Source: Bdellovibrio sp. ZAP7
GTDB taxonomy: Bacteria > Bdellovibrionota > FAC87 > UBA2466
Reading direction: 5' to 3'
DNA: 48,974 nt
Assembly (NCBI GenBank): GCA_945878405.1
Contig: CAMCTJ010000014.1
Coordinates: forward strand, 1 to 48,974
Shown here: positions 1,662 to 22,004 of the stretch, piece by piece
Layout: each line of letters opens with the position of its first letter
How positions within the stretch are numbered: the stretch's first letter is position 1
Notes under the pieces: model-generated
What the model saw: only the letters and a program-made list of their open reading frames with translations
The model's database searches: none
What the model was told of the DNA's origin: nothing
Made by a program: the position numbers and the translations under genes

Positions 1662-3047
1662 ATGAGCAAAGTAATCATCCGAAATGGGACCGTAGTTACT
1701 GCAACGGACGTCTTCAAAGCAGACATTTTAGTTGAGGGGGAAAAGGTCACTGCCATTTCCCAGCATCTTTCCGAATCGGCCCCAAAGGAAATCGATGCTT
1801 CTGGTTGCTACGTACTTCCCGGGGGCATAGATGCCCATACTCACTTGGATTTACCTTTCATGGGCACTTTCTCGAGCGATGATTTTGAGACGGGAACTCT
1901 CGCAGCCCTCCATGGAGGGACTACAACCATTATTGATTTTGCTTTTCAAACTCCTGGCAAATCTTTGAAAGAAGGGCTCGAGGAGTGGCACCAGAAGGCC
2001 AAAGGAAAAGCAGCAGCCGACTATGCTTTTCATGTGGCCGTTGTGGACTTCAACGAAAAGACCCGCTCCGAGATTCGAGATCTGATTGAAAAAGAAGGTG
2101 TGACGTCGTTCAAAACCTTCATGGCCTATAAAGGGGCCCTCATGATTGATGATCGACAAATGATCGGTCTCATGAATGAAGTAAAAAAATGGGGTGGTCT
2201 TGTTACCGTTCATGCTGAAAACGGAGACTTGGCAGATTCTCTGATTCAAATCAATCGAGATAAGGGAAACAAAGCTCCCAAATACCACGCGCTCTCTCGT
2301 CCCGAAATTGTAGAAGCAGAAGCCACGGGGCGAGCTATCGACATTGCCTATGCGGGCAATCACCCGGTCTATATTGTCCACATGACGTGTGAAGGAGCTC
2401 TCAACCGAGTCAAAGACGCTGCGAAACGCAATCAGCGAGTTCTAGTTGAAACCTGTATTCAATACCTCTTATTAGACGACAGTGTTTACGAACGACCGGG
2501 CTTTGAAGGAGCAAAATGGGTGATGAGCCCACCGCTTCGCAAACCCAAAGATCAAGAGGCTCTTTGGAAAAGTTTGGAGCAGGGATTGGTCCACGTGGTC
2601 GCGACTGATCATTGTCCCTTCTGCATGAATCAGAAGGAAATGGGGAAAGACGATTTTTCTAAAATTCCTAATGGAGCTCCGGGAATCGAAAACCGCATGG
2701 AACTTCTTTACTCGGAAGGGGTTGAGAAAGGCAGAATCAGCCTCACCAAGTTTGTAGAAGTGAATTGCACTAATCCCGCTAAGATTTTTGGCCTCTATCC
2801 TGAGAAGGGGACGATTGCTGTGGGTTCAGATGCCGATCTTGTGATTTTAGATCCGAGAGTAGAGCACACGCTATCCCAAGAAACACAACACATGAATTGC
2901 GACTATTCCTCCTATGAAGGGTGGAAAGTGAAGGGCAAAGTAAAAACAGTGCTTCTTCGAGGCACAGTCGCCATTGAAAACGGAAAAGCACACGTGGGAA
3001 AAGGTTTTGGAAAATATTTAAGGAGAAAGAAATGGCAAGAAAAGTAA
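1662..3047 (+). CDS. hydA: Dihydropyrimidinase (D-hydantoinase family)
   Basis: 461 residues from ATG 1662. A TTG 12 bases earlier, overlapping the mmsA stop, is less likely because the family N terminus begins at MSKVIIRNG. This is a cyclic amidohydrolase of the dihydropyrimidinase/hydantoinase family. Visible metal ligands are the HxH pair in GGIDAHTHLD, the lysine that becomes carbamylated in SFKTFMAYKG, histidines in VTVHAEN and YIVHMTCEG, and the Asp of VVATDHCPF. It opens the ring of dihydrouracil to give N-carbamoyl-beta-alanine. Its 3' end overlaps the ATG of the nitrilase gene by 16 bp, so the two are probably translationally coupled. Substrate preference (dihydrouracil rather than another hydantoin) is inferred from the neighbours. 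Confidence 0.93.
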   Translation: MSKVIIRNGTVVTATDVFKADILVEGEKVTAISQHLSESAPKEIDASGCYVLPGGIDAHTHLDLPFMGTFSSDDFETGTLAALHGGTTTIIDFAFQTPGKSLKEGLEEWHQKAKGKAAADYAFHVAVVDFNEKTRSEIRDLIEKEGVTSFKTFMAYKGALMIDDRQMIGLMNEVKKWGGLVTVHAENGDLADSLIQINRDKGNKAPKYHALSRPEIVEAEATGRAIDIAYAGNHPVYIVHMTCEGALNRVKDAAKRNQRVLVETCIQYLLLDDSVYERPGFEGAKWVMSPPLRKPKDQEALWKSLEQGLVHVVATDHCPFCMNQKEMGKDDFSKIPNGAPGIENRMELLYSEGVEKGRISLTKFVEVNCTNPAKIFGLYPEKGTIAVGSDADLVILDPRVEHTLSQETQHMNCDYSSYEGWKVKGKVKTVLLRGTVAIENGKAHVGKGFGKYLRRKKWQEK

Positions 3048-3898
3048 AAGTTGGACTCATTCAGATGGCAACCAAGGCGCCTGCCGAAGCTTCTTGCGAA
3101 GAGCACAGAGAAGCGATGTTAGAAGCACATGCTAAGTACATCGACGAAGCAGGAAAACAGGGCGTGAATATGTTGTGCATGCAGGAAGTTTTTACTGGAC
3201 CCTATTTTTGTCCCTCCCAAGATGCAAAGTGGTATGGACTAACAGAAAAAATCCCCGACGGCCCCACGACAAAGCTCATGCAAGAGTACGCTAAAAAGCA
3301 TGGCATGGTGATTGTTGTGCCCATCTATGAAGAACACATTACTGGCGTTTATTACAACACTGCTGCTGTTATTGATGCCGATGGGAAGTATCTTGGAAAA
3401 TACAGAAAGAACCATATTCCCCAAGTAAAAGGCTTTTGGGAGAAGTTTTTCTTTAAGCCAGGAAATCTTGGTTACCCAGTTTTCAAAACTGCCTTTGGCA
3501 ATGTCGGTGTTTATATTTGCTATGATCGCCACTTTCCTGATGGTGCTCGATGCCTGGGATTAAATGGTGCTGAAATTGTTTTTAATCCCTCTGCTACTGT
3601 GGCTGGTTTATCCGAATATCTATGGCAGTTGGAACAACCAGCGCACGCTGTTGCAAATGGCTATTTCGTAGCCGCCATTAATCGGGTGGGTACGGAAGCT
3701 CCTTGGAATATCGGAGAGTTTTACGGTCAATCCTATGTCGTGAGTCCCCGAGGAAAAGTTTTAGCCAAAGCTTCTCGAGACAAAGACGAACTACTTGTGA
3801 CTGAAATTGATCTCGACGAAGTGAAAGAAGTTCGAGATCTCTGGCAGTTTTTTAGAGACAGAAGACCAGAAACTTACGGTCCTTTAACGGAGCTATGA
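3032..3898 (+). CDS. Nitrilase-superfamily beta-ureidopropionase (N-carbamoyl-beta-alanine amidohydrolase)
   Basis: 288 residues with the Glu-Lys-Cys triad of carbon-nitrogen hydrolases: E in CMQEVFTGPYF, K in GKYRKNHIP and C in VYICYDRHFP. Length and motifs fit the beta-ureidopropionase / N-carbamoylputrescine amidase branch. In this context it should hydrolyse N-carbamoyl-beta-alanine to beta-alanine, CO2 and ammonia. The start codon lies inside the end of the dihydropyrimidinase gene, preceded by an AAGGAG Shine-Dalgarno near 3019. N-carbamoylputrescine amidase (AguB) is the main alternative, made less likely by the neighbours. Confidence 0.88.
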   Translation: MARKVKVGLIQMATKAPAEASCEEHREAMLEAHAKYIDEAGKQGVNMLCMQEVFTGPYFCPSQDAKWYGLTEKIPDGPTTKLMQEYAKKHGMVIVVPIYEEHITGVYYNTAAVIDADGKYLGKYRKNHIPQVKGFWEKFFFKPGNLGYPVFKTAFGNVGVYICYDRHFPDGARCLGLNGAEIVFNPSATVAGLSEYLWQLEQPAHAVANGYFVAAINRVGTEAPWNIGEFYGQSYVVSPRGKVLAKASRDKDELLVTEIDLDEVKEVRDLWQFFRDRRPETYGPLTEL

Positions 3899-3899
3899 A

Positions 3900-5210
3900 A
3901 TGGCAATGACAACGGATGAGATTTTAGCGTTTCGAAAAAAACATTTTCTGGCGACTTCGGTATTCTATTACAAAAATCCCCTTCACCTGGTGAAAGCGCG
4001 AGGGGAATATGTCTATGATTTAGAAGGGCGAGAATATTTAGACTGCATCGGTGGAATTGTTTGCATCAGTGCGGGTCATAATCATCCCAAGATTAAAGAA
4101 CAGATTCTGAAAATGCTTAAGGAGGATGAAATTCAACATACCTCTTTGCTGTATTTGAATTCTCATCCCGTTGAATTAGCGAAAGAGCTTCTGAAAGAGG
4201 CACCGGAGGGAGTTGATCGGGTCTTTTTTACCAACTCTGGAAGCGAAGCGAATGAGCTTGCTTTTTTAGCTGCGAGGCAAGCAACAGGGGAGACGATAGT
4301 TATTAATCTTCGCCACAGCTATCACGGGGGCACCTCAGCTACTTTAGCTCAATGTGGACACGGCACTTGGAAGTTTCGGGCTCAGCCTTCTGCCTTGAAT
4401 GTCTCTGCCATGGAGCCTTACTGCTACCGATGTCCTTTTGGAAAGAAACCCGATAGTTGTTCTCTGGAGTGTGCAAAGAACGTTGAGACAACGATTCAAA
4501 CAAGTACGCATGGAAAAATTGCAGCTTTTATTGCGGAACCCGTGATGGGAGTAGGAGGCTTTATTGCTCCGCCCAAAGAATATTTTGAAGAGGTAGTTCA
4601 GATAGTGCACCGCTATGGCGGAAAATACATCAGTGATGAAGTGCAAACAGGAGCGGGAAGAACCGGGGAATCATTTTTGTTCACAAAGGCTCTCGGAATC
4701 AAAGCAGACATGGTAACCATGGCCAAGGGCCTTGGAAATGGAGCTGCCATAGGCGCAACCCTGATGAAAACGGAAAGTTCTGACAGCATGGCAGGGAAAC
4801 TCTTCTTTAATACGTTTGGCAGCGACCCCTATCAAACAATGCAAGCGAAAGTGACATTAGAAGTTATCCGTGAAGAAAAGCTCATGGAAAATGCGAAAGC
4901 CATGGGAACCTATCTTCAAGAGGGAATAAAGAACCTCATGAAAAACCATTCCCTTATCGGCGAGGTTCGGGGACGCGGACTTTTGATGGGCTTTGAACTC
5001 GTCAAAGACAGAGAATCCAAAGAGTATGCCATTGCTGAAACAGTGAACCTAATGGAGAAGTGCCGAGAAAAAGGAGTCCTCGTTGGGAAAGGGGGCCTGT
5101 TTGGAAATGTGATTCGAATTGCTCCGCCTCTGAGCATTAACCAGAAACAATGCGATCGAGTTTTAAAAGTGATTGATGAATGCCTCACAGAAATGAAGAA
5201 AGAAGTATGA
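3900..5210 (+). CDS. Class III PLP-dependent aminotransferase, probably beta-alanine aminotransferase
   Basis: 436 residues. The PLP lysine is in VTMAKGLGNG and the cofactor-binding Asp in ISDEVQTGAGRTGE. The glycine-rich FTNSGSEANE and RHSYHGGT segments are typical of class III (subgroup II) enzymes. A cysteine-rich insert (YCYRCPFGKKPDSC) is characteristic of the AGXT2/4-aminobutyrate-like branch. Within this cluster the expected reaction is transfer of the amino group of beta-alanine to pyruvate or 2-oxoglutarate, making the malonate semialdehyde used by the MmsA-type enzyme. The gene starts one base after the nitrilase stop, and its own stop overlaps the preA start (ATGA). The exact amino acceptor cannot be read from the sequence. 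Confidence 0.88.
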   Translation: MAMTTDEILAFRKKHFLATSVFYYKNPLHLVKARGEYVYDLEGREYLDCIGGIVCISAGHNHPKIKEQILKMLKEDEIQHTSLLYLNSHPVELAKELLKEAPEGVDRVFFTNSGSEANELAFLAARQATGETIVINLRHSYHGGTSATLAQCGHGTWKFRAQPSALNVSAMEPYCYRCPFGKKPDSCSLECAKNVETTIQTSTHGKIAAFIAEPVMGVGGFIAPPKEYFEEVVQIVHRYGGKYISDEVQTGAGRTGESFLFTKALGIKADMVTMAKGLGNGAAIGATLMKTESSDSMAGKLFFNTFGSDPYQTMQAKVTLEVIREEKLMENAKAMGTYLQEGIKNLMKNHSLIGEVRGRGLLMGFELVKDRESKEYAIAETVNLMEKCREKGVLVGKGGLFGNVIRIAPPLSINQKQCDRVLKVIDECLTEMKKEV

Positions 5211-8882: not shown

Positions 8883-9425
8883 TTACCAACGAGGGCTACA
8901 AGCTATTTCGTAGCCATTAGGGATATATTCATTTACGCAATTAATTCTATTGCACAAAAAAGCATGATTCATGGGAACGTAAGCCTCCTGACAATAGCTC
9001 GAAGTACAACCTAGCTGGTTTCCCGGTCTTATATAGTAAAGTGAACACTCATAATCGGTGCACCCGAGCCGGTACCCTTTACGCAGGTAAAAGTACTGGC
9101 AAGAGTTGAGAGTGCATCCGACTACATATCCTGCTCGGTAAGGGATGCTCTGACAAAAAGTGCTAGTGCAAGCTAAAGTATTTCCCGGTGCGACGTAATA
9201 TTGCTGGCAACCAGACGCAGTACACCCGACTTGATAATTCAAATAATAAGGGAGAACCTGACAGGAGGCTCGATTGCAGGCTAGCTGATAGCCCTGGGGA
9301 ACGTAGTAACGATTGCAACTAGAGGCAGTACATCCCATCTCATAACCATTGGGGACATAGATTTTCTCACAAACATCTGCAGAGGCTAGGATACTTAAAA
9401 AAAGTAAAATAAAGTGAACTCGCAT
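8883..9425 (-). CDS. Exported Cys-rich protein made of 18-residue repeats
   Basis: 180 residues; no known family recognised. A signal peptide (MRVHFILLFLSILASA) is followed by eight full copies and one partial copy of an 18-residue unit. The consensus is roughly x-Y-Y-(V/I/L)-x-x-G-Y-x-(L/V/M)-x-C-T-x-x-x-C-x, for example RYYVPQGYQLACNRASCQ and LYYIRPGNQLGCTSSYCQ. Every full repeat has the C-x4-C pair, giving 16 repeat cysteines plus the extra one at the mature N terminus. The last repeat ends at IACSPRW. The regular Cys pairs and the aromatic YYV strand suggest a disulfide-stapled beta-solenoid-like rod outside the cytoplasm. That is inference only. It is immediately upstream of, and coupled to, the exported amidohydrolase. 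Confidence 0.8.
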   Translation of the reverse strand: MRVHFILLFLSILASADVCEKIYVPNGYEMGCTASSCNRYYVPQGYQLACNRASCQVLPYYLNYQVGCTASGCQQYYVAPGNTLACTSTFCQSIPYRAGYVVGCTLNSCQYFYLRKGYRLGCTDYECSLYYIRPGNQLGCTSSYCQEAYVPMNHAFLCNRINCVNEYIPNGYEIACSPRW

Positions 9426-9452: not shown

Positions 9453-9734
9453 CTAAAAGCAAGATTCGACGGATCTGACCATTTCAGACAGAGTCGTAGA
9501 GTCAGATTTTCTGCTGTCTAGGGTAATAGTCATGAGAATGCGGGATTGGGAATGAGCTAACTTTTCGTAACACTTTCTGAGTGCCAGAAAGACCTGATCG
9601 GGACTTCCTTCCAGGGTCGTACCCATCGGGCCCAACTGATAATGGACCTGACATTTCTTCACTTCTTCTAGAGCTTCAGCAACTGCTCCAGTTAAATGAT
9701 TTTGAGTAAGGGGAACTACGGCAAATTCGGCCAT
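9453..9734 (-). CDS. Thiamine-binding protein of the MTH1187/YkoF family (DUF77)
   Basis: 93 residues from MAEFAVVPLT. The start is one of two adjacent ATGs (9737 or 9734), both well placed behind an AGGAGA Shine-Dalgarno at 9742-9748. A longer reading of the frame would run into the intron and is rejected. The small alpha/beta ferredoxin-like protein has the family pattern of an N-terminal strand MAEFAVVPL, a central VHYQLGPMGTTLEG and a C-terminal MTITLDSRKS strand. Members bind thiamine or thiamine-like ligands. Catalysis is not known. The gene lies directly downstream of the group II intron, so its ribosome-binding site is in the 3' exon. Confidence 0.8.
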   Translation of the reverse strand: MAEFAVVPLTQNHLTGAVAEALEEVKKCQVHYQLGPMGTTLEGSPDQVFLALRKCYEKLAHSQSRILMTITLDSRKSDSTTLSEMVRSVESCF

Positions 9735-9758
9735 CATAAAACATCTCCTAACCCTCAG

Positions 9759-10555
9759 GTGAGGGGGTGGAGCGTCGGTAGTACTCGGAGCGAACCAAAT
9801 ACTATCGGCACCCACCACTTACCTGCTCAACCGTACGTTGGGTTTTCCCCAATACGGCTAGAAAGGCTGGCTCATCAACAAGAAGCATTCCTCAGTTTGA
9901 TTTCAGATTAAGCCCACTTCCGGCATGCTCAGAAATCCAACTTTGTTGGCTTCTTATTTCACACTTCCCGTACATCAGAAGTGATGCCACACGATCAGCT
10001 TTCGCTGATTTACCTCTGAGACCCTCACTCGACCTAGCTTTTATTTCTAGGCTTCTCGGCTTATCGATCTCATCTGTCCTACTCTTGGCCCCGGGTAGGT
10101 AACCCCACTCGTTTTTTTCCTACATAAGTATCGGAAAAAAACCAAGAGCAGTTCCGCGCTTTCGTAACTCCTTCTGTATTAACCTATCACCCTCTCATTC
10201 AAAACCTGAGTCTGGGGCACCATCCAGTTGCCATGGTTCCCAGTGATAGTCTTCGCCCGGCTTGATCAGGCTCGACACTCCCAAGTCTCCACCGACTTCG
10301 ATCGGCAAAGATCTTGCTGCTTTGAAATCACCGAGGTTCGCTCTCGCTGCAATCGGTTAACTTGCTATCCACCAGTTCGAAGTTTCTTCCTGGGCATTTG
10401 ATTGCCCAAGAAGATGGTGGCTTTTACAGTCAGCTTCCGCAGAGAATATCACTATTCCCCACGCTAACTATTGCTACAGCCGTATCTGGACAATTCGGCT
10501 GGTGAGACTTTCACTCACTAGAAGGTGCTACTTGCGTCGCTGCCTTCAAGCACAC
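9759..10555 (-). mobile_element. ORF-less group II intron (about 0.8 kb)
   Basis: On the minus strand the element begins at GTGTG (10555-10551), matching the GUGYG 5' splice-site consensus, followed by CTTGAAGGCAGCGACGC. Several compact GC-rich hairpins follow, including a GTGAG-TGAAAGT-CTCAC stem-loop. Near the 3' end is a clear domain V (9828-9860), followed by a long hairpin suited to domain VI (about 9766-9816). The 3' boundary is uncertain: intron ends in AY fit either 9767 or 9759. No reverse transcriptase or maturase frame exists in either strand, so any splicing or mobility would need a protein from elsewhere. It sits between cardiolipin synthase and the thiamine-binding gene, in the sense orientation. 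Splicing activity is not shown by sequence. Confidence 0.82.
9828..9860 (-). ncRNA. Group II intron domain V
   Basis: Minus strand: AGCCGTATTGG at the 5' side pairs with ACGTACGGTT at the 3' side. The stem starts with the AGC catalytic triad region, has the two-base CG bulge between CCCAA and TACGG, and a GAAAA loop. A four-base GNRA loop is usual, so the five-base loop is slightly unusual. The 8-bp proximal stem, the bulge and the 5-bp distal stem follow the family consensus closely. This is the main evidence for calling the surrounding 0.8 kb a group II intron. Confidence 0.88.
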
Positions 10556-10664
10556 TTATTAACAATTGCATTTGGAGTGCCAAGACATTTCTGCGTAAGG
10601 GTAGAAAAGCCAAAGAGGTTAAATTGGGTTTTGCAAAAACAGAATTGAATTGTGCAAGTGTCTG

Positions 10665-12080
10665 CTAAAGAAGAGGGGCTACCAGCCTGAAAAGCCCGTC
10701 TCGAATCCTGTAAACAAAACTTTGATGACTAAAATGTTCTAGCAAAAGCTCCTGGGCTTGGACCAATCGATGAGCGAAACCTTCTTCCAGTAAACCAACT
10801 TTTGTTTCATCAAATATCAAAGAAGAACACTCAAAATTAAGCCGAAAGCTTCTTTCATCCATATTAGCTGATCCAATTAAAGCGACACTGCCATCTATCG
10901 TAACCTGCTTAGCGTGAATAAAAGACTCAGTTGTCTCACAAATTTTAATCCCCCCTTGAAGAAGATCCCAATACCAGCTCTTTGAAGCTGCATCGACCAA
11001 CCAATGATCAGATTTTCTGGGGACTAGAATTTCCACGCGAACGCCTCTTCGAGAAGCGGCTTCCAGTGAAAGCACGATAGATTCAGTGGGCATGAAATAG
11101 GGAGTTAAAAGAGTAATTCTCTTTCTGGCAGCATGGATGAGCGCCATCAAAATCTTTTCCAGGGAATGGGGCAATTCGTCAGGACCAGTGGGCAACAATT
11201 GGATGATGGAATTTCCAGAAATTTCTGAAGGTAAATAGGGATCTGTCGGTGAGATAACCTTTCCGGTAGTGAAAGCCCAATCCTCTAAGAAAACAGTCTC
11301 AAGTTGATTGGCCCCAGCCCCTTGAATGAAAACCTGATTGTCTATCCAATCTAATTTCTGAATTCGCCATTTTCGATAATCCGAGCAAATATTTTGACTA
11401 CCCGTAAAAGCTTTATTGCCATCGATAACAGCCAATTTGCGGTGGTTCCTCAGCTGAAAATTCCAAGGGTGGTTCCAGGCAAGCTTCCCGAAAAAAGCAA
11501 ACTCTGCTCCAGCGGCCTTGAGGGGTGTGACAAACTCCTTGTTGAGAGGGAAGGAACCGACATGATCGACCAGCAATTTTACTTCAACTCCTTCTTTTGC
11601 TTTTTTGATTAAAAGATCTCGAAAATGGATACCCACTGAATCTGATCTGAAAATATAATATTCCAAATAAATACGCTTTTCGGCTCTTTCAATTGTCTGA
11701 GTGAGGGATTGGTAGATACTTTCTTGCCCTTCAAAAAACTCGAGTTCATTTCCTGAAACAGGTGGAAAACCAGATAAATGCTCAGCAAGTTGTGAGACTG
11801 GGACGAATAAAGTATCCAATTCACTCAGGTTTGATTTTATGAGAAATCCGGTGTCCGGCAGTCTTTTCTGAGGCTCAGGTTTAGGACGGGCTCTTCTTTT
11901 TAAATTTGAGTAACCGACTAATAAATAACTCAAAGGACCGATGAACGGGAGGACAAAAAATGTAAGAATCCAAGCCCAGGTTGCAGGAATAGAACGTTTT
12001 CTCCGGCTTAAGACAAGTAAGGTGAAAAAGACCCCTATCACTAATCCCAAATAATTAAATGCAGTCCAAAGTGATTTCAT
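10665..12080 (-). CDS. cls: Cardiolipin synthase (ClsA-type phospholipase D family)
   Basis: 471 residues. Two N-terminal membrane segments (YLGLVIGVFFTLLVLS and TWAWILTFFVLPFIGPLSYL) anchor it in the inner membrane. Two HKD catalytic motifs follow: HRKLAVIDGNKAFTGS near residue 212 and HAKQVTIDGSVALIGSAN near residue 390. This arrangement and length match ClsA. The enzyme joins two phosphatidylglycerols, or PG with another phospholipid, to form cardiolipin. The start ATG is 4 bp after the metH stop. The group II intron begins about 110 bp after its stop codon. Confidence 0.92.
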   Translation of the reverse strand: MKSLWTAFNYLGLVIGVFFTLLVLSRRKRSIPATWAWILTFFVLPFIGPLSYLLVGYSNLKRRARPKPEPQKRLPDTGFLIKSNLSELDTLFVPVSQLAEHLSGFPPVSGNELEFFEGQESIYQSLTQTIERAEKRIYLEYYIFRSDSVGIHFRDLLIKKAKEGVEVKLLVDHVGSFPLNKEFVTPLKAAGAEFAFFGKLAWNHPWNFQLRNHRKLAVIDGNKAFTGSQNICSDYRKWRIQKLDWIDNQVFIQGAGANQLETVFLEDWAFTTGKVISPTDPYLPSEISGNSIIQLLPTGPDELPHSLEKILMALIHAARKRITLLTPYFMPTESIVLSLEAASRRGVRVEILVPRKSDHWLVDAASKSWYWDLLQGGIKICETTESFIHAKQVTIDGSVALIGSANMDERSFRLNFECSSLIFDETKVGLLEEGFAHRLVQAQELLLEHFSHQSFVYRIRDGLFRLVAPLL

Positions 12081-18541: not shown

Positions 18542-20443
18542 ATGCGCCAACCACTTTTTGTGTTTTATGAAACGTCTGGATTGAGGGTTCCCGAGCTTTC
18601 GGAGGATACCCATTTTGTTACTGCGAAAAGTCCTGACCAAATTCTTTCGGCCGTTCAAAAAGCCCAGCAGGAAAATCAGATGATTGTTTTTTTGGTCACG
18701 GAATTTGAGTGTTATCGGCTTTCTAAGCTGATGGAGGCTCGAGCTGCACGAGAAAAGTGTCCTCCCTTTTCCTGGGTAGTGGTTTGCGAAAAAACAGAAT
18801 TGTTCTTAAAAAGCCCACATATTCCCCGCGGGCTTCTCGACGTTATTTCTCAACAGCAATTAACGTCTGAGACTCGGTACTTATTTTCAAAATTCAAAGC
18901 ATTGATGAGAGATTTTTCCCCTCCTGAATTAAGTAGAATTAGCTCCCAGACTCTGCAAAAGCTGAATGAAATTCTTGTTAAGCTAACTGCTGAGCGAGAC
19001 CCTAAAAATCTTCTCATCGGTACTCTCTCAGAGGCGATAGAACTTCTGAATGCCCAGGGAGGAACACTTCTGGTGGTTGCTGAGGAAGAAAGTGAATTGG
19101 TTTTCAAATACCATGTTCAAGACACAGGTGAAAACCGCATCGTCCTTAATGAAATTAATCAACTCGTCCAGGAAAACAGTGTTTGTGGTTATGTAGTTCT
19201 GACGGGAAAGACCACCAATCTGTCATTTAGTGACAGTCGGAGTATTCCCCATCCTGTAGTCAATCGACAGATTGATCACCAGCAGGGTTCGCAAATGATA
19301 TCGCTTCTCTCGATTCCATTAAAAGACAGTCGGGGAGATTGCAGGGCGGTGTTGCAACTTTGCAATAAAATGAGTGATGGAAAAATAATTTCTTTTGATG
19401 AGGATGACGAGAGCATTCTCAGATCATTTGCAACTCAAGCGGCCATCTGTCTTGAGAGCAGTGACATCTATATTGAAGTGCAAAAATTGTTCGAAGGTTT
19501 TGTTCGGGCATCGATCACTGCAATTGAGTCTCGAGATCCTAGCACGGGCGGGCATTCGGAGCGGGTGGCATCGATGTCTATCGCGTTGGCCCGAGCAACC
19601 ACGGAAGTAAATACGGGAATTTATCGGTCGGTTAAATTTAAAGAACAGGAAATTAAAGAACTGGAGTACGCAGCTCTACTTCATGATTTTGGAAAAATAG
19701 GGATTCGAGAAGAAGTTCTTGTGAAATCTAAAAAGCTTTATTCCCATCAATTGGACGGAATTCGAGACCGCCTTCAAACTTTCAAGGCAGCTGCAAAAAT
19801 ACAATATCTGGAGCAAGTAATCCAGTCTGGTGGACCCTCAAAAGTAAAGTTAGAACAAGAATACCAGCAGCAAGTGCAGAAAATAGAACAGTACTGGAAT
19901 TTGATCCTGTCAGCTAACGAACCCAATATTCTTCATAAAGAGAATGAAAAACTTTTGGATCAGATTCGAGATGAGAAGCTAGCTCTGCCAGATGGTAGTC
20001 AGCTTTCACTCCTAAACGATGAAGAATACCTAGCTCTTTCAGTAACTCAAGGGTCGCTGACTGAACTCGAGCGTTTAGAAATTGAATCTCACGTGAGACA
20101 TACTTATCAGTTTTTGAAAATGATACCGTGGACGAGAGACTTTAGAGGGCTAACGGAAATTGCCTACTGCCATCATGAAAAACTCGATGGGAGTGGATAT
20201 CCTCGAGGCTTAACGAATCATGAAATTCCGCTCCAATCAAAGATCATGACTATCGCAGATATCTTTGACGCACTGACTGCTGCTGATCGTTGGTATAAAG
20301 AAGCAGTTCCTGTTGAAAAGGCGCTTGAGATATTGGCCCAAGAAGTCAAAGAGGGAAAGATAGATCCCGTTCTCTTTGATATCTTTAAGGAACGTAAGAT
20401 TTACACCGCGTCAGTTGTGAACTCTTTGGGCAAAGTAGCTTGA
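18542..20443 (+). CDS. GAF and HD-GYP domain protein, probable cyclic-di-GMP phosphodiesterase
   Basis: 633 residues. The first 120 form an alpha/beta region of unknown type, possibly a degenerate receiver. A GAF sensor domain covers about 140-300 (LLIGTLSEAIELLNAQGGTLLVV to FATQAAICLES). The HD-GYP domain covers about 310-630, with HSERVASMSIALA, LHDFGKIG (the HD pair) near 380, HHEKLDGSGYPRGL near 544 and DIFDALTAADR. About 85 charged residues, likely coiled coil (around 410-500), are inserted between the HD pair and the GYP segment. Known members hydrolyse c-di-GMP and thereby favour motility. The gene lies just before a flagellar-type sigma-54 activator, consistent with such a role. The leader is described separately. 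Confidence 0.87.
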   Translation: MRQPLFVFYETSGLRVPELSEDTHFVTAKSPDQILSAVQKAQQENQMIVFLVTEFECYRLSKLMEARAAREKCPPFSWVVVCEKTELFLKSPHIPRGLLDVISQQQLTSETRYLFSKFKALMRDFSPPELSRISSQTLQKLNEILVKLTAERDPKNLLIGTLSEAIELLNAQGGTLLVVAEEESELVFKYHVQDTGENRIVLNEINQLVQENSVCGYVVLTGKTTNLSFSDSRSIPHPVVNRQIDHQQGSQMISLLSIPLKDSRGDCRAVLQLCNKMSDGKIISFDEDDESILRSFATQAAICLESSDIYIEVQKLFEGFVRASITAIESRDPSTGGHSERVASMSIALARATTEVNTGIYRSVKFKEQEIKELEYAALLHDFGKIGIREEVLVKSKKLYSHQLDGIRDRLQTFKAAAKIQYLEQVIQSGGPSKVKLEQEYQQQVQKIEQYWNLILSANEPNILHKENEKLLDQIRDEKLALPDGSQLSLLNDEEYLALSVTQGSLTELERLEIESHVRHTYQFLKMIPWTRDFRGLTEIAYCHHEKLDGSGYPRGLTNHEIPLQSKIMTIADIFDALTAADRWYKEAVPVEKALEILAQEVKEGKIDPVLFDIFKERKIYTASVVNSLGKVA

Positions 20444-20494
20444 TGCAAAATGGAAAAAATTTCCTCCTTTAGGAAATAACTTCCCGTCAATCCA

Positions 20495-20523
20495 TTGACA
20501 AAAAATTCAAACTTCCATAAAAT
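20495..20523 (+). promoter_or_regulatory. Sigma-70-type promoter upstream of the sigma-54 activator
   Basis: TTGACA at 20495-20500 and TAAAAT at 20518-20523 are separated by exactly 17 bp. The first is a perfect -35 and the second a five-of-six -10. Transcription would start near 20530, giving a leader of about 107 bases before GTG 20637. This would let the activator be made before sigma-54-dependent genes are on. Confidence 0.65.
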
Positions 20524-20636
20524 TAAAAGTGTTCAGATTCAATTTCAAATTTTACACACTGATAGTTTCTCCAAGACGAAATTGAAGGTCACTGAACAAT
20601 CTCTCAATTATTTTCAAGTAAAAACTGGAGAAGATA

Positions 20637-22004
20637 GTGTCCATTCGTCGGATCTTGATTTGTGAGAGTGATTCTTATCTTTCACAAGATTTTAGGGAGT
20701 GTCTTCAGCGAAAAGGATATTGGGTGGATTCTGCTTCCGATCCTTCCAGTGCAGCAAACATTCTTAAGAAACAAACTATTCACCTTTGTCTTTGGGGCTT
20801 CTCCGATGCTGAGGCGCTCCAACACCTGAGCCAAGTGCGATCCGAACGGCCAGCATGCTCGGTGATCATGCTAAGCACAGATTCGAAACCAAGCTCTATT
20901 GTTCAATACATGCGATCGGGTGCCACCGATTTTTGGGATAGCAGCAAGGGGACCGATGGTCTGGATAGCCTCGTCGACGCGCATTTGAACAAAGTAGTTG
21001 GGGATGATTCCCAGGTGGCGCAGATTGATTTTCCGTTGGCAAACTTTGTTGGCCGTCACCCCAAAATGATAGAAATTTTTCAACTGATCATGAGCATCAA
21101 AGACACCGATTCCAATGTGCTCATCACGGGGGAGAGCGGAACAGGTAAAGAAGTAGTGGCTCGGGCTATTCATGATCTGTCGCCAAGAAAAAAACTTCCT
21201 TGGGTGGCCGTTAACTGCGGGGCTATTCCGGCAACTCTTTTAGAGAGTGAGTTGTTTGGCCATATGAAAGGGGCCTTCACTGGGGCTACTCAAAACCGTA
21301 TGGGACGATTTCAGCTAGCTGCCAATGGAACCCTTTTTCTTGATGAAATCAGTGATCTTTCACCGGATTTACAAGCGAAAATTTTAAGAGCCATTCAGCA
21401 ACGTGTTTATGAGCCTGTCGGTAGTGCTCATAGTCTCTATCTCAATGCTCGCGTCATTGCTGCGACTAACCAAAACCTCGAGCAAGCAGTCAAGGAAAGA
21501 AAGTTTCGCGAAGATTTATTTTATCGCCTTAACGTGATCCCGATTAATTTGCCACCCTTGCGAGAGCGAAAATCGGACATCCCTCTTTTGGTAAAAGCTT
21601 TTGTTACGAAGTTTAGTGAACAACACAAAAGGGATGTAACCGGAATTTCGGAAGAGTCCATGCGAGTTCTCATGCAGTATCAGTGGCCCGGAAATATTCG
21701 GGAGCTTGAGAACCTGATTGAAAGAGTCGTTATTTTGAAACGAGAGCCTGGAATCATTGAACTTAAGGATTTGCCAGTCCAGCACTTTAAAAGTGTTTCA
21801 TTGGATAGATATATCAGCAGTGTTTCTTTCCCTGAGGGAGGGCTTGATCTTAACGAAGCGATGAACGATTTTGAGAACGAACTCATTCTTCAGGCGTTAA
21901 GAAAAACTCAAGGTAACAAAAACAAAGCTGCAAATTTGCTCAACTTGAACCGAACGACTTTGGTAGAAAAGCTAAAGCGGAAGGGTCTCAAAATAGCAGT
22001 TTAA
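20637..22004 (+). CDS. NtrC-family sigma-54 activator with pseudo-receiver domain (FlgR/FlrC-like)
   Basis: 455 residues from GTG 20637, behind GGAG. Residues 1-120 have the receiver fold pattern: acidic pocket CESD at 9-12, and ST and K near strands 4 and 5. The phosphoacceptor position at the end of strand 3 is Gly54 (HLCLWGFSD), not Asp. The AAA+ domain (about 145-370) has Walker A GESGTGKE, the sigma-54-contacting loop GAFTGA, and Walker B TLFLDEISD. The C terminus is a Fis-type helix-turn-helix (NKNKAANLLNLNRTTLVEKL). It should remodel sigma-54 polymerase at enhancer-dependent promoters. Its position near the flagellar operon suggests flagellar regulation. The missing Asp suggests control other than by phosphorylation. 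Confidence 0.88.
   Translation: MSIRRILICESDSYLSQDFRECLQRKGYWVDSASDPSSAANILKKQTIHLCLWGFSDAEALQHLSQVRSERPACSVIMLSTDSKPSSIVQYMRSGATDFWDSSKGTDGLDSLVDAHLNKVVGDDSQVAQIDFPLANFVGRHPKMIEIFQLIMSIKDTDSNVLITGESGTGKEVVARAIHDLSPRKKLPWVAVNCGAIPATLLESELFGHMKGAFTGATQNRMGRFQLAANGTLFLDEISDLSPDLQAKILRAIQQRVYEPVGSAHSLYLNARVIAATNQNLEQAVKERKFREDLFYRLNVIPINLPPLRERKSDIPLLVKAFVTKFSEQHKRDVTGISEESMRVLMQYQWPGNIRELENLIERVVILKREPGIIELKDLPVQHFKSVSLDRYISSVSFPEGGLDLNEAMNDFENELILQALRKTQGNKNKAANLLNLNRTTLVEKLKRKGLKIAV

Follow-up and report, generated by a model that had tools for sequence, protein, structure and literature searches.

A group II-type RNA of the Bdellovibrionota that is very probably a free-standing gene and not an intron

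Bacterial group II introns are regarded as selfish retroelements. The window analyzed here, a 48,974-nucleotide stretch of DNA from Bdellovibrio sp. ZAP7, harbors between two genes a group II-type RNA that carries no open reading frame (ORF) for a reverse transcriptase (RT), and the question that this locus raises is whether the RNA is an intron at all. The original prediction had described it as an ORF-less group II intron that is either inactive or helped in trans. On the basis of the sequence comparisons reported below, we conclude that the locus is very probably a free-standing RNA gene that descended from a group II intron, and the best reading is that of a domesticated, non-splicing, stress-linked RNA.

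The RNA gene, comprising domains I to VI, spans positions 9763 to 10556 on the minus strand, as delimited by an Rfam match (RF02003), three covariance models (R1, R2, and R3) and a 17-sequence alignment with covariation (A4). Upstream of it lies cls, a gene for a cardiolipin synthase-like PLD protein (10665 to 12080, minus strand; Pfam PLDc_2, PLDc, and PLDc_N), which ends ~110 nt before the RNA. Downstream is a gene for a thiamine-binding protein of the MTH1187/UPF0045 type (9453 to 9737, minus strand; PF01910 Thiamine_BP, E 3e-19), which starts ~25 nt past domain VI on the same strand. The PLDc_2 and PF01910 matches bear out the neighbors named in the original prediction, and both genes are syntenic in G001 and G002, which together with the window genome (G000) form the three congeners compared. 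Neither of these immediate neighbors is a stress gene. The window also encodes, at 8886 to 9425 on the minus strand, a 180-amino-acid protein that looks secreted and contains repeated motifs with Cys residues (YVPxGYxxxCxxxxC), which had no Pfam match and is conserved in both congeners G001 and G002.

RF02003 (group-II-D1D4-4) matched positions 10520 to 10342 on the minus strand with 61.1 bits (E 4.4e-11) and was the sole significant Rfam match. The Rfam model of domains V and VI, RF00029 (Intron_gpII), remained below threshold and, at a cutoff as lax as E<=5, still reported nothing in the window. Model R2, which was built on the domain V region, matched positions 9809 to 9931 at 121.3 bits, a score to be read with the fact that the window belongs to the training set of R2. 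Domain V has 33 nt (UAGCCGUAUUGGGGAAAACCCAACGUACGGUUG at 9860 to 9828, minus strand), and the letters AGCCGUAUUGGGGAAAACCCAACGUACGGUU at 9859 to 9829 contain the AGC triad (A9859-G9858-C9857), the CG bulge and a GAAAA pentaloop. The convincing domain V of the original prediction is thus confirmed by its sequence, by the R2 match and by the congener identity given below; no other domain V-like motif was found elsewhere in the window. The GAAAA loop had been considered unusual, an assessment that did not hold, as at least 118 stretches matching a 33-nt domain V with this loop were found in GTDB genomes, several of them in RT-bearing introns. Since such domains are common in ordinary introns, we dropped the pentaloop as a mark of a new class.

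Folding of the 17 full-length homologues in A4 with RNAalifold resulted in six separate domains in the canonical order I to VI, all encoded on the minus strand. A short 5' hairpin of 3 pairs (helix 1; 10541 to 10552) precedes domain I (helices 2 to 20; 10155 to 10539), which includes the RF02003 match. Domain II (helices 21 to 25; 10076 to 10154) is followed by domain III (helices 26 and 27; 10018 to 10071), the closing stem of which, GAGAUC...GGUCUC, was paired in 100% of the alignment cells, and by domain IV (helices 28 to 35; 9862 to 10016), which contains no RT frame. Domain V (9828 to 9860) and the domain VI hairpin (helices 37 and 38; 9763 to 9818) complete the structure, the latter corresponding to the long domain VI-like hairpin noticed originally. 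A circularly permuted arrangement was rejected on account of the domain order I to VI. The consensus comprises 237 pairs that were scored on the same alignment that yielded them, which favors the structure: 89.0% of the cells were paired, compared with 72.0% in shuffled and at most 43.7% in slid alignments, and both sides had changed in 185 of the 237 pairs, compared with 122 after shuffling. The covariation score of 0.568 exceeded that of the shuffled alignments (0.252) and that of the slid ones (0.160 at most), and covariation was present in all domains. Despite the shared alignment, the both-sided changes are far beyond those of the shuffled and slid controls. Two features that define group II introns, namely, the six-domain structure and a domain V with an AGC or CGC triad and a 2-nt bulge, are therefore found in this RNA, and an ORF-less, group II-derived RNA on the minus strand between the two genes, as originally proposed, is well supported by the fold and the RF02003 match.

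To define the class to which this RNA belongs, we searched covariance models against 369 genomes of a single phylum, the Bdellovibrionota, and retrieved 52 loci in 38 genomes, corresponding to 21 genera and 7 families. The assignment to this phylum is supported by two proteins of G071, another of its genomes, which along nearly their entire length are close to the PDB chains Bd3459 and Bd0816, names that denote loci of Bdellovibrio bacteriovorus. R1, built on 142 nt at the 5' end of the RNA, matched in 37 of the 369 genomes at E<=0.01. At 48 loci an R2 match followed 545 to 672 nt after the R1 start, and 41 of these loci were outside the R2 training set; this distance leaves no room for an RT. 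The R1 loci that had no R2 match were those of G001 and a fragment in G129, both cut by contig ends, and those of G113 and G326, which were dropped because the matches were weak and lacked a domain V. R3, built from 46 loci, added three loci outside its training set (G057, G116, and G126), with domain V at +677 to +719, and a further R3 match in G143 was set aside, since its RT-like frame marks it as an ordinary intron. Class members scored 51 to 145 bits with R1, whereas control introns of other phyla scored at most 58 bits; with 5' models, some real ORF-less introns of other phyla reached 57 to 58 bits and overlapped the weakest members, so that the boundary of the class is blurred when the 5' model is used by itself. 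Inspection by eye of the domain V triads at the 52 loci revealed AGC in 34, CGC in 5, UGC in 3, and AAC in 8, and domain V was missing in 2. The two copies in which it is entirely missing (G345, locus L210, contig C57; G318, locus L215, contig C106) have kept domain I and a terminator-like domain VI.

We then inspected the features by which a group II intron is excised. The GUGYG motif was observed at the expected start in only 1 of 49 loci, which is the window itself (GTGTG at 10555), and the two congeners carry GCGTG and ACGTG at this position. The GTGTG start that had been taken for an intron boundary is thus private to the window genome. When the six bases before the start were compared with domain I, a complement to IBS1 was detected at 30 of 49 loci, compared with 28.5 in shuffled sequences, so that EBS-IBS pairing did not exceed chance. 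No consistently bulged branch-point A was seen by eye in domain VI of A4.

Signs of an intron-encoded protein (IEP) were similarly scarce. The longest open stretches inside the RNA have 75 and 106 codons, neither of them RT-like, and the RT domain RVT_1 was absent at E<=1 from the whole 2.24-Mb window genome (95.75% complete), which extends the original claim of a missing RT frame to the genome. RVT_1 was also absent from the congeners G001 and G002 (~95% complete), and no RT or maturase domain was detectable in any of the three congener genomes. Across the class, RVT_1 was absent from 20 of the 37 genomes searched, and the group II maturase domain GIIM from 30 of 35 RNA-carrying genomes. The RNA is single-copy in its genome, and the search for other copies and for a maturase there was thus negative. 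Control introns from other phyla mostly had GUGYG-type starts, and about half contained RT-length frames (L102, L107, L113, L127, L131, and L134, as compared with the ORF-less controls L068, L070, L071, L080, L083, and L111). These six apparently ORF-less group II introns, with 640 to 810 nt to domain V, come from Gamma- and Deltaproteobacteria, Nitrospiria, Verrucomicrobia, and Flammeovirga, and such introns are perhaps commoner than the literature suggests.

Upstream of the RNA, we found a promoter motif of the sigma-54 (-24/-12) type, TGGCACTCCAAATGC, at 10568 to 10582 on the minus strand (TGGCA-N7-TGC), which is conserved in the homologues. The transcript start predicted from it is at ~10556, one base before the supposed first base of the intron, leaving ~1 nt of exon. 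The motif [TC]GG[CT]A-N7-[TC]GC was present upstream of 32 of the 34 loci outside family f9, whereas 0.28 were expected from first-order Markov shuffles. Its spacing is fixed: the -12 GC precedes a conserved GCGA within the RNA by 25 to 27 nt at 18 loci (21 nt at one) and by 42 to 46 nt at 13 loci of family f13, which carry extra 5' sequence. TTTGGCA and TGCAAT are retained in all three congeners, rpoN was found in all 37 genomes searched, including that of the window, and the GG and GC elements are 12 bp apart, as in sigma-54 promoters, the sites being motif matches. The control introns from other phyla showed no TGGCA-N7-TGC motif at the class spacing. The 15 loci of family f9 lack the -24/-12 motif and by eye have other promoter-like upstream sequences in common, which suggests a promoter switch in this family; TTG...TAnnnT-like sequences are seen upstream of f9 copies (L225 to L235 and others). 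The domain V-less copy in G345 retains the sigma-54 motif. Elsewhere in the window, at 18542 to 22004 on the plus strand, the gene for a GAF/HD-GYP protein precedes that for a sigma-54-dependent response regulator of the NtrC type (20637 to 22004).

At the other end of the RNA, about 29 of 48 loci have, past domain VI, a T-rich tract that resembles an intrinsic terminator; the test output was 31, from which we discounted the window's own tract, located far downstream of domain VI, and another inside the hairpin. In the window's family and genus, domain VI is not followed by a T-run and is not terminator-like. By the boundary features tested, the class lies outside group II introns and is derived from them.

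Within the genus, the RNA occupies the same site between cls and the thiamine-binding gene in G001 and G002, with an assembly break near domain V in G001. Mean pairwise identity among the three congeners amounted to 98.6% for domain V with margins, 72% for domain I, 75% for domains III and IV each, and 60% for domain VI, as compared with 42% for the spacer between cls and the promoter and 64% for the coding DNA of the thiamine-binding gene. The shared site and the difference between domain V and the spacer indicate that the RNA is vertically inherited under selection and that it is neither a recent nor a decaying insertion.

Considering the possible role of the RNA, we examined its neighbors throughout the class. 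They vary by lineage, yet are often of one type, namely, stress genes. Among 101 neighbors, raw counts, which include syntenic orthologues and are hence not independent, were 9 for CBS proteins, 5 each for erythromycin esterase and HSP20, and 2 each for RtcB, archease, HSP70, and sigma-54 activators. Individual neighbors include FtsH, Lon, a ribosome-hibernation-type S30AE protein, and an archease-RtcB pair close downstream of the RNA, a set that we take to resemble a dormancy and stress set. In G128 (L234) and G129 (L229), archease follows the RNA copy directly (2962 to 3378 and 2288 to 2704, respectively) and the RNA ligase RtcB ~0.5 kb downstream (1511 to 2875 and 2729 to 4156); the CBS and DnaK genes upstream are divergently oriented. 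A functional link of the RNA to RNA repair is possible in view of these neighbors. G209 contains two tandem RNA copies ~1.5 kb apart (contig C9, 18102 to 19709; L214 and L221) on either side of an Hsp20 gene, and both copies have a sigma-54 motif of their own. In other parts of the class the RNA precedes unrelated genes, and the next gene is sometimes on the opposite strand.

These data allow the possible readings of the locus to be weighed. A true group II intron that lacks an ORF but is still spliced, alone or helped in trans, would account for the canonical domain order, the AGC triad, the CG bulge, and the GTGTG at 10555; it has a precedent in C.te.I1 of Clostridium tetani, which is ORF-less and resides in a genome without an IEP (PMC4424553), and read-through from cls could supply its 5' exon. 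Such an intron is nevertheless improbable, given that GUGYG is lost in both congeners and present in a single locus of 49, that IBS1-EBS pairing shows no excess and domain VI no consistent bulged A by eye, and that the genome yielded neither an RT nor a maturase domain. Furthermore, the predicted transcript start at the first base implies that there is no 5' exon, and the T-run that in many homologues immediately follows domain VI implies that there is no 3' exon. The term "intron" used in the original prediction is therefore unsupported. The alternative offered there, "inactive or helped in trans," fares no better, as the RNA has been kept by selection across the phylum, which makes inactivity unlikely, and as a helper with an RT or maturase domain was not found in the genome.

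The short distance of ~25 nt between the end of the RNA and the start codon on the same strand, the lack of a T-run in the genus and the gene order kept in three species would equally fit a cis-acting leader, resembling an attenuator or riboswitch, in which the group II fold merely controls the thiamine-binding gene. We consider this unlikely as an explanation of the RNA, because elsewhere the same RNA stands before unrelated genes or is followed by a gene on the opposite strand, and because terminator-like tracts close it at the majority of loci tested; in the genus of the window, transcription of the RNA may nevertheless continue into the thiamine-binding gene, or the RNA may form its leader, so that the effect on this gene suggested in the original prediction may exist there. 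The loss of the RT and the degenerate or missing domain V of some members could also be those of a functionless, decaying relic of a mobile intron, but domain V is nearly identical across genera, pairs have changed on both sides throughout the fold, and the promoter motif is kept at a fixed spacing, all of which render a relic exceedingly improbable.

The preferred reading, a free-standing RNA gene, may be envisaged as follows. The sequences show a group II fold that is conserved by covariation but has lost its IEP and the conserved 5' splice motif, a -24/-12 sigma-54 motif just upstream, from which transcription would start at the former first base of the intron, and, in many relatives, a T-run at the end of domain VI as in an intrinsic terminator. 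An enhancer-binding protein, together with sigma-54, would switch the RNA on under stress. The ~0.8-kb RNA would fold as a group II scaffold and probably acts in trans; as to its biochemical role, we infer that it is most likely a structured RNA or part of an RNA-protein particle in a response to RNA or protein damage or in dormancy. Group II chemistry on other RNAs is conceivable where the AGC or CGC triad is kept, that is, at 39 of the 52 loci, including the window. Catalysis as the shared function of the class is unlikely, since 11 loci have an altered triad and two have no domain V at all, provided that these two copies are functional. We propose only tentatively, and with considerable doubt, that an entire group II ribozyme has become a sigma-54-induced, trans-acting host RNA that cleaves or joins cellular RNAs where its triad is intact, or does so together with RtcB and archease.

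With bacterial group II introns (RF02003 and RF00029), the window RNA shares the six canonical domains, the RF02003 match and the 33-nt domain V with its AGC triad and CG bulge. It differs from them in the lack of an RT or maturase in cis or in trans, of a conserved GUGYG and of exon pairing, in a putative promoter of its own at the first base and in its fixed locus in the genus, and the class also differs in that domain VI is often terminator-like. The closest described relatives in kind are the circularly permuted (CP) ribozymes of the group II type (Roth et al. 2021, PMC8637638), which are likewise ORF-less bacterial group II-like RNAs of unknown role that are not ordinary introns; their domains V and VI are at the 5' end and their splice sites are inside, whereas the window RNA has the order I to VI. 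C.te.I1 is comparable in that it, too, is a group II RNA that has no ORF and whose host genome lacks an IEP, but it splices, also alternatively, between exons (PMC4424553), whereas in the window RNA the splice signals are unconserved and a putative promoter takes the place of the 5' exon. According to a 2015 review (PMC4424553), C.te.I1 is the only bacterial example of such an intron, ORF-less forms are rare, non-mobile derivatives seem to be short-lived, and few can have escaped notice. A paper on the transcriptome of Bdellovibrio bacteriovorus does not mention introns (PMC3627812).

In the open-licence literature searched, we found no description of a promoter-driven, non-splicing class of group II RNAs with the canonical domain order. 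The class described here has been kept across a phylum without an RT, with its own predicted promoter and often its own terminator, and adds a large structured RNA to the apparent sigma-54 stress response of predatory-type bacteria. It provides natural material for the step from a self-splicing intron to a host RNA gene, a step that usually comes up only in discussions of how the spliceosome arose, and proof that the RNA acts in trans without splicing would make the class categorically new. Spliceosomal snRNAs and organellar group II pieces such as tscA are group II-derived or group II-like RNAs that have their own genes and work in trans. They are fragments that serve splicing in eukaryotes and organelles, whereas the window RNA is a whole, six-domain bacterial RNA with no known role in splicing. 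If it acts in trans as a host ribozyme, it would be a bacterial parallel, of independent origin, to the path that led to the spliceosomal snRNAs.
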